Made by a program: the position numbers and the translations under genes. Source: an uncultured Clostridia bacterium (GTDB taxonomy: Bacteria; Bacillota; Clostridia; Christensenellales; Borkfalkiaceae). Taken from it: 56,845 nucleotides of DNA. This document shows positions 335-18,265 of this stretch, in pieces (position 1 is the first letter of the stretch; each line of letters starts with the position of its first letter). The notes under the pieces are model-generated. The model saw only the letters and a list, made by a program, of their open reading frames with translations. It had not been told where the DNA came from and made no database searches. The stretch spans positions 1 through 56,845 of the forward strand of contig CANQNO010000007.1 of NCBI GenBank assembly GCA_947625245.1, in the 5' to 3' direction.

Positions 335-364
335 TTGACAAAACGGCACTTTTTGTGATATAAT
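335..364 (+). promoter_or_regulatory. Sigma-A promoter for the candidate RNA at 371
   Basis: A consensus -35 TTGACA (335-340), an 18-base spacer and a consensus -10 TATAAT (359-364) predict a start near 371. That is the first base of the outer inverted-repeat arm. Confidence 0.75.
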
Positions 365-370
365 TTTAAA

Positions 371-583
371 TGCCAAACAATTCTAAATAACATAAGGAGT
401 ACGATTTTTTTTATTTTTTAAATACGTATAATTTTTTTGCATGTACAAACAATGGATTTAGCAAGACTGCAAATTCCACTTATGTTTGTATATGCGAAAA
501 TCGTACTCTGCATAAGAATTGTTTGGCGACAATCGGGGTTTGCGTTTTGTATGCGTCGGCTTCGGTTGGCGCATTTTTATTTT
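371..583 (+). ncRNA. Candidate structured non-coding RNA (about 213 nt), family not recognised
   Basis: Three nested inverted repeats make one long rod. The outer pair is GCCAAACAATTCT 372-384 with its perfect complement at 515-527. The second is GAGTACGATTTT 397-408 with its perfect complement at 497-508. The inner pair is GCATGTACAAAC 439-450 with 484-495 (11 Watson-Crick pairs plus one G-U). The apical 33 bases can pair further (GGATTTaGC with GCAAAtTCC, about 454-476). A 30-base AT-rich bulge containing ATACGTAT lies on one side only. A consensus promoter ends 7 bases upstream and an intrinsic terminator closes at 551-583, so this reads as an independent transcript rather than a leader. 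No reverse transcriptase or transposase is adjacent. It could instead be a MITE-like DNA element or a leader of the gene at 660. Confidence 0.55.
551..583 (+). terminator. Intrinsic terminator of the candidate RNA
   Basis: Stem ATGCGTCGG (551-559) pairs with TTGGCGCAT (566-574), allowing G-U pairs, around a CTTCGG loop and is followed by TTTTATTTT. Confidence 0.65.
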
Positions 584-18035: not shown

Positions 18036-18086
18036 ATATAAAAAGCGGATTTTGATTGCCGTGATTTCAAGGCAATCAAAATCCGC
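18036..18086 (-). terminator. Intrinsic terminator of 6S RNA
   Basis: A perfect 16-bp stem (18071-18086 with 18045-18060, 10-base loop) is followed on the minus strand by TTTTTATATT. Confidence 0.85.
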
Positions 18087-18265
18087 CTGTGCCGTGATAT
18101 GAAAAAGTTTTAACCCGCTTCTCGCAGGTGGGTGCGCCGAAGCCGGATATCGGACTTTCCGAATAAACAGACCTTGCCTATTCCGGCGAACAGCCGCTCC
18201 CTTTTACATATTGTGGATTACGAATTCTCCATACCACGAACACCGCAGACGCAAATTTTGTTTAC
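18087..18265 (-). ncRNA. ssrS: 6S RNA
   Basis: Read on the minus strand, the ends of this transcript pair. GTGTTCGTGGTATG (18243-18230) pairs with CATATCACGGCAC (18101-18089) in 13 base pairs with one bulged U. Just inside the 3' closing stem lies GCGAGAAGCGGGTTAAAACTTT, like the GAGAAGCC-TTAAAACT stretch of enterobacterial 6S RNA. The centre (GCCGGA...TCCGGC arms) gives the rod with an open internal bubble typical of RNA that mimics an open promoter and traps sigma-A polymerase. A promoter (18272-18300) and an intrinsic terminator (18036-18086) bound it. Identification rests on structure and short motifs; exact ends are approximate. Confidence 0.8.

Follow-up and report, generated by a model that had tools for sequence, protein, structure and literature searches.

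A riboswitch-like RNA family of Clostridia that probably forms transcription-attenuating leaders

6S RNA is a long rod with internal loops. The transcriptional preQ1 riboswitch of Bacillus subtilis belongs to class I. Formation of a pseudoknot in this riboswitch frees an intrinsic terminator, and an antiterminator is formed without the pseudoknot (PMC11625349). The locus described here occupies positions 335-583 of a 56,845-nt stretch of DNA from an uncultured Clostridia bacterium; this stretch, the window, is the whole of contig 7 in an assembly of 1.42 Mb. The locus probably supplies the gene at 660-1124 with its promoter and leader and would belong to a riboswitch-like family of transcription-attenuating RNAs in Clostridia. 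Judging from the sequences compared, its outer stem P1 holds together a rod in which an apical strand and the 3' tail can form a helix of about 15 bp, and this tail can pair instead with the terminator. The long rod with internal loops recalls 6S RNA. A relationship was rejected, since the only 6S match of the window lies at 18076-18254 on the minus strand (55.4 bits).

Promoter, rod and 3' end of the window copy

The original prediction placed a consensus promoter, a nested rod and a terminator within 335-583, and all three were recovered. The promoter at 335-364, on the plus strand like all features below, consists of a -35 box TTGACA (335-340) and a -10 box TATAAT (359-364) separated by an 18-nt spacer; all 12 of 12 letters agree with the consensus, and a TG ahead of the -10 box makes it an extended one. 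This geometry predicts a transcription start near 371. The 5' arm of P1 at 372-384 pairs with 515-527 (13 nt, 100% in the repeat search), the 3' arm being supported by covariation as well. P2 joins 397-408 to 497-508 (12 nt, 100% in the repeat search) and is also present in the folds. P3 pairs 439-451 with 483-495 in the lowest-energy fold; this is the folded helix of a third ungapped repeat pair, 434-451/483-500 (18 nt, 89%). A U-rich side segment at 409-433 was delimited from folds of the window copy and from comparison with long-form relatives, many of which have a small hairpin followed by U's in this place; the arrangement is degenerate in the window copy. At the tip of the rod, 453-463 forms a local apical hairpin with 468-478 in the window fold, with moderate support from the family; in the family-wide test the best partner in the window copy falls elsewhere than 468-478. 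Folding of the RNA 371-583 yielded -73.3 kcal/mol compared with -40.6 +/- 3.8 kcal/mol for shuffled sequences (z -8.6), and none of 200 shuffles reached that value.

Two features of the 3' half had escaped the original prediction, namely the pairing of the apical segment with the tail and an antiterminator as the lowest-energy 3' fold. The pseudoknot joins 461-477 (461-467 and 469-477, base 468 bulged) to 536-550 with 16 bp and -20.1 kcal/mol, a value equalled by 2 of 2000 shuffled tails. Its 3' strand overlaps the antiterminator 5' strand at 530-545 and stops where the terminator starts. The antiterminator, supported by fold energy and covariation, pairs 530-540 with 558-568 and 542-545 with 553-556; its 3' strand at 553-568 consists of the 5' arm, the loop and the first 3' bases of the terminator. 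The intrinsic terminator hairpin, supported by covariation, spans 551-574 with a UUCG loop at 561-564, and the U-rich run at 574-583 was read from the sequence. The antiterminator, rather than the terminator, occupied the 3' end in the lowest-energy fold (-17.4 vs -13.7 kcal/mol). Taken singly, the antiterminator duplex of the window is unremarkable, 90 of 2000 shuffled tails being equally strong. Upstream of the locus, positions 84-124 and 215-254 hold copies of a repeat some 40 nt long, in which the hairpin GGGCACCC is followed by GTATTCGTGGTACGGAGTTC; they come after a tRNA truncated by the contig start (1-74).

Distribution and conserved helices of the family

A DNA similarity search gave matches in 15 of the 61 genomes of a sample of relatives, the window's own included and a few of them weak; three weak matches (L015, L016 and L017) bore no likeness to family members on inspection. 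With a 23-base pattern derived from the common 3' tail of the matches, at least 120 stretches of genome contigs were collected. Among 80 pattern matches listed with titles, 78 came from Clostridia or groups within them and two were assigned to Bacillota only. Pattern matches, DNA-similarity loci and three viral contigs together provided 130 distinct elements, one of them of viral origin, and a recognisable 5' arm was located 131-174 nt ahead of the tail in 119 of these. The addition of 114 covariance-model matches raised the collection to 233 distinct elements, two of which are identical over the last 70 nt; 226 were kept as having a tail of 15-30 nt and at least 50 nt of downstream sequence, 225 of them with the anchor. 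A short form of 101-141 nt, without the junction and side hairpin of the long form, makes up 38 of the 226 usable elements.

The covariance model matched 15 of the 61 relatives, 35 of 196 genomes of the class and, in a sample of the phylum, one of 299 genomes, the window's own; absences in the class and phylum samples are soft because filters were stricter and few candidates were scored per genome. Fourteen genomes picked for holding a pattern locus had 1-9 model matches each, some weak and one on the opposite strand. Opposite-strand matches, ascribed to the near-palindromic rod, were left out. The window's genome holds three copies, the two further ones lying at G000:C10:28768-28943 and G000:C25:4930-5100. 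Tandem RNA copies with no gene in between occur at L158:199-355 and 470-597 (G048:C37), and a Gut-1 RNA (Rfam RF01706) lies near a short-form copy (L287:654-724).

The family had not been recognised in the original prediction, and Rfam 15 likewise held no gathering-score match on the element in 24 sources (the window, 10 loci, 12 mostly short-form loci and L171). Weak cmscan matches on the window were treated as chance. For L171, the sole Rfam match up to E 1 was the L20 ribosomal leader (RF00558), which was rejected as being at chance level (19.1 bits vs a gathering score of 58.7, E 0.19). The preQ1 covariance model of Rfam gave no match on the element in the window and the loci scanned, and membership is not claimed. 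In the literature searched, a scope outside which supplementary lists and most subscription journals lie, the family was not found; none of the candidate RNAs in the accessible parts of a human-microbiome (gut metagenome) survey and a 50-genome survey (PMC8040213, PMC11109978) has the same anatomy, and overlap is possible via their supplementary models. The family is a real structured RNA, large and absent from Rfam 15. A mainly phage- or plasmid-borne element was rejected, the exact pattern occurring in none (narrow version) or three (wide version) stretches among 2.9 million viral contigs; the three (L144-L146) have one common sequence over the end of the element. With one long-form query only, 1 of 50,697 phage records and 0 of 72,556 plasmid records were matched. 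The phage record, MT835503.1 of human faecal origin, matched only part of the query, 67% of it at 74% identity. Together with L144-L146 it suggests that the family is occasionally carried by phages.

Three alignments underlie the comparison of helices. A1 contains 56 of 93 dereplicated elements drawn from the 119; A4 was built from 81 chosen loci with diverged ones enriched (87 rows, 85 distinct, at least three doubtful and low-scoring), its pseudoknot columns being gapped in about a third of the rows; A5 contains 57 of 106 dereplicated tails, the short form being left out. The shuffle statistics given below ignore kinship, which the within-genome contrasts answer in part.

The predicted start at the first arm base is borne out across the family: in 91 of 117 elements a promoter with at least 9 of 12 letters precedes the outer stem by a fixed distance, compared with 40 of 2380 random positions. 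P1 was paired in 99.4% of the cells of A4, and 10 of 11 counted pairs had changed on both sides. The check for compensated pairing, set beforehand as the refutation test of the rod, thus found the changes in the outer stem compensated; this count covers P1, and P2 and P3 pair in single folds. Covariation counts cover P1, pseudoknot, antiterminator and terminator, and the support for P2 and P3 comes from folds (repeat search, single folds). A conserved TG before CCAAAC was rejected as a start codon and, by inspection, read as an extension of P1.

In many long forms the apical motif reads UAAAAAUGCAAAUUCC and can form about 15 bp with the tail GGAGUUUGCGUUUU; because the tail lies outside P1, the resulting helix is a pseudoknot. 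A loose motif test detected the apical motif in 222 of 226 elements. In 225 elements the pseudoknot averaged 15.5 bp and -18.4 kcal/mol; letter-shuffled tails averaged -9.7 kcal/mol, and 103 of 11300 reached the native value. As partner of the tail, the strongest duplex with any part of the interior was used, and in L229 and L257 this falls outside the apical motif. On A4, P1 and the pseudoknot together were paired in 97.6% of cells with 18 of 24 pairs changed on both sides, none of 500 shuffles being equal by any measure, whereas slid-partner controls reached at most 48.3%. The pseudoknot helix singly was paired in 95.3% of cells, with 8 of 13 pairs changed on both sides. Pairing is kept with changed letters in L166 (GUAUCUC/GAGAUAC), L234 (GUUGACUCC/GGAGUUGAC) and L228 (CGCUC/GAGCG and UGCA/UGCA); in L166 the strands of hairpin, pseudoknot, antiterminator and terminator all depart from the usual letters yet fit one another. 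When tails were swapped, the native combination was stronger in 131 of 188 long forms (-16.5 vs -15.4 kcal/mol) and 29 of 38 short forms (-13.7 vs -12.0 kcal/mol), a gain that is modest because the letters are conserved. The suggestion that the apical segment is a functional part is supported.

The local apical hairpin, which would be a competitor of the pseudoknot, is moderately supported across the family: it averaged -7.0 kcal/mol compared with -3.9 in shuffled and -5.6 in swapped sequences, and 856 of 6780 shuffles were equally strong. The rod has about 41 enclosing pairs in the long form and about 30 in the short form, and the linker from P1 to the pseudoknot strand measures about 8 nt, so that the pseudoknot needs a sharp bend. 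The junction and a conserved AAUA after the P1 5' arm may serve as hinges.

The 5' arm and loop of the terminator offer the tail a second pairing partner. Base -4 of the tail (four before GGAG) and its counterpart in the terminator are complementary in 142 of 154 cases, compared with a shuffle mean of 72.0 and none of 5000 shuffles as high. The same holds for 12 of 13 elements in the five genomes that have different letters at this base among their examined copies. On A5, the antiterminator was paired in 92.7% of cells compared with 11.1-53.8% for slid partners, and the terminator in 97.0%. Of the five measures for the antiterminator, the pair-type count did not stand out from shuffles, 307 of 500 of which reached the native count. 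In the swap test for this helix, the native tail paired more strongly than the median of the swapped ones in 161 of 188 long forms (-12.1 vs -9.4 kcal/mol) and 28 of 38 short forms; a control with reversed tails against the terminator also favoured the native tail, in 114 of 188 long and 25 of 38 short forms, with a smaller energy gap (-8.5 vs -7.8). Family-wide, 558 of 11300 shuffled tails matched the antiterminator in strength. A terminator hairpin with T run was present in 225 of 226 elements, and the lowest-energy fold of tail plus terminator was antiterminator-like in 178 of 226 and terminator-like in 48. In these alignments compensatory changes occur in all of P1, pseudoknot, antiterminator and terminator, and the conserved letters lie mainly within these four helices. 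Antiterminator and terminator, which exclude each other, are both kept in this manner, as in a transcription-attenuating leader RNA.

Genes behind the RNA

A self-contained small RNA, as originally predicted, is at variance with the surroundings of most copies. Downstream frames were scored for 227 elements (six more had too little DNA), and 186 of these have a co-directional frame with a ribosome-binding site within 150 nt, encoding varied products. The frames start at a median of 21 nt behind the U-tract, 124 of them within 30 nt, which would leave little room for another promoter. A second count, over a distance of 300 nt, took same-strand frames that have a ribosome-binding site and either encode at least 60 aa or run off the end of the DNA. 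Such a frame was found at 108 of 121 loci, compared with 18 of 117 in a divergent control; at 78 of the 108 it is no more than 60 nt away. The RNA thus has the setting of a leader, with its own promoter at a fixed distance and a co-directional gene close behind the terminator.

Domains encoded in 99 scanned genes included 15 BspA-type leucine-rich repeats, four dockerin, four SHOCT, four zinc ribbon and three AbrB/MazE-like domains. By a simple and crude hydropathy rule, an N-terminal signal or membrane segment was called in 90 of the 186 frames compared with 75 of 524 control frames in pattern loci, and 49 of 186 were lipoprotein-like compared with 29 of 524. The covariance-model-only sample repeated the excess (45 of 89 signal or membrane, 23 lipoprotein-like). 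In three copies (L057, L062 and L139) the terminator is followed after 9-10 nt by the start of an AbrB/MazE-like protein of 77-78 aa that has a CxxC motif; this protein is possibly a regulator of its own leader.

In the window, a ribosome-binding site AGGAG at 648-652, read from the sequence, precedes the gene 660-1124, which starts with TTG and encodes 154 aa. The protein has a likeness to the SRA domain (28.3 bits, below the cut-off of 30.2) and a weak match to a methyl-directed restriction enzyme; no convincing solved relative and no NCBIfam match were obtained. It is present in 3 of the 61 relatives and 2 of the 196 class genomes, the window's included in each. In one relative (G013) the RNA is 89% identical and the protein is encoded about 1.7 kb downstream. 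Among the 130 pattern elements, four (the window, L071, L091 and L112) have a homologue of the protein encoded by one of the first three genes; in L091 and L112 the gene ahead of it belongs to a single BLAST cluster, and the product of that gene in L112 starts MGRHWM and weakly resembles the SLATT domain. The SRA-like protein is a recurring, otherwise rare cargo of the RNA. The next gene of the window, 1239-2120, encodes a NERD nuclease-related domain and a topoisomerase-type zinc ribbon.

Proposed switch and known systems

Positions 536-545 can serve either the pseudoknot or the antiterminator, and 553-568 either the antiterminator or the terminator; pseudoknot and terminator are compatible, abutting at 550/551. 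Pseudoknot formation during emergence of the tail would let the terminator fold, transcription would stop near 583 and the gene would be off. With the apical strand taken up by an effector or in the local apical hairpin, the antiterminator would fold and the gene would be on. The antiterminator should thus win when the pseudoknot is absent, and the terminator should be left free when it is present; we infer that the terminator represents the off state and is triggered by the pseudoknot. Through the several copies in a genome, different and often exported proteins would come under a single signal.

The signal might be a small molecule, a metabolite or ion that binds the rod or junction and shifts the balance of pseudoknot and antiterminator. 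Such a riboswitch, to which we assign somewhat less than an even chance, fits the expression platform, and 1-9 matches per genome in the 14 genomes picked as holders, with unrelated genes behind them, fit a general signal. However, the most strongly conserved letters are accounted for by the mutually exclusive helices, and the junction and side hairpin of the long form are missing in the short form, so that no shared compact aptamer is seen. A protein or RNA that holds the apical hairpin or strand and thereby favours the antiterminator is an alternative refinement of similar, below-even probability. It is consistent with the conserved apical strand at the tip of the rod and with the small AbrB-like gene directly behind three copies (model match shown for one), although the moderate support for the local hairpin speaks against it. 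More speculatively still, one RNA device without a classical aptamer might run a regulon of exported and accessory proteins in many families of one clostridial class. This tentative scheme would be a five-strand relay (apical hairpin, pseudoknot, antiterminator, terminator), its conserved letters almost all complementarity, set by whether the rod tip bends to the base; instead of a metabolite, it would sense an RNA acting in trans, a protein or some physical variable.

That the RNA is instead free-standing, its terminated product of about 213 nt acting in trans beside incidental neighbours, appears unlikely. Most elements have their own promoter, 225 of 226 a terminator and 41 of 227 no frame within 150 nt; the tandem copies in G048:C37 lack a gene between them. 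In the window's genome, the C10 copy is followed by the next same-strand ATG-started frame (70 aa) at about 370 nt, and the C25 copy has no clear start with a ribosome-binding site in the 110 nt after its tail. A small RNA would not, however, need an antiterminator kept by compensatory change, nor does it account for co-directional frames at a median distance of 21 nt. The terminated product may have a stand-alone role alongside that as a leader. The RNA/protein pair suggested in the original prediction is not supported, and an RNA antitoxin paired with 660-1124 as toxin (type III or abiF-like) is very improbable and largely refuted. The RNA does lie directly upstream of the gene, and relatives of the protein occur near 4 of 130 pattern elements, window included. 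Against this, the RNA is found in 15 of 61 relatives and the protein in 3 (the window's genome in both), most copies precede other genes with no constant partner protein, and the sources tested gave no Rfam match.

One odd rod has thereby led to 233 distinct elements, most of them from metagenome-assembled Clostridia, and to a proposed mechanism that strand swaps can test. If the logic is right, a single signal would control many lipoproteins, proteins with BspA-type leucine-rich repeats and further accessory genes in bacteria that have been little studied, and identification of that signal would open up the regulation of these exported and accessory genes. With nearly all of its conserved letters explained by alternative helices, the switch would also offer a clean model for co-transcriptional strand exchange.

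The choice between terminator and antiterminator in a leader is common to this family and to leader-peptide attenuators. A leader peptide itself was rejected, as a frame of at least six codons preceded by a Shine-Dalgarno sequence (SD) is closed inside the element in only 11 of 226 cases. With the preQ1 riboswitch (PMC11625349) the family would have the same logic in common, a pseudoknot leading to the terminator and its absence to the antiterminator. It differs in that a compact aptamer is replaced by a long-range pairing of about 15 bp from the tip of a 30-41-pair rod to the tail, and in the variety of the genes that follow.
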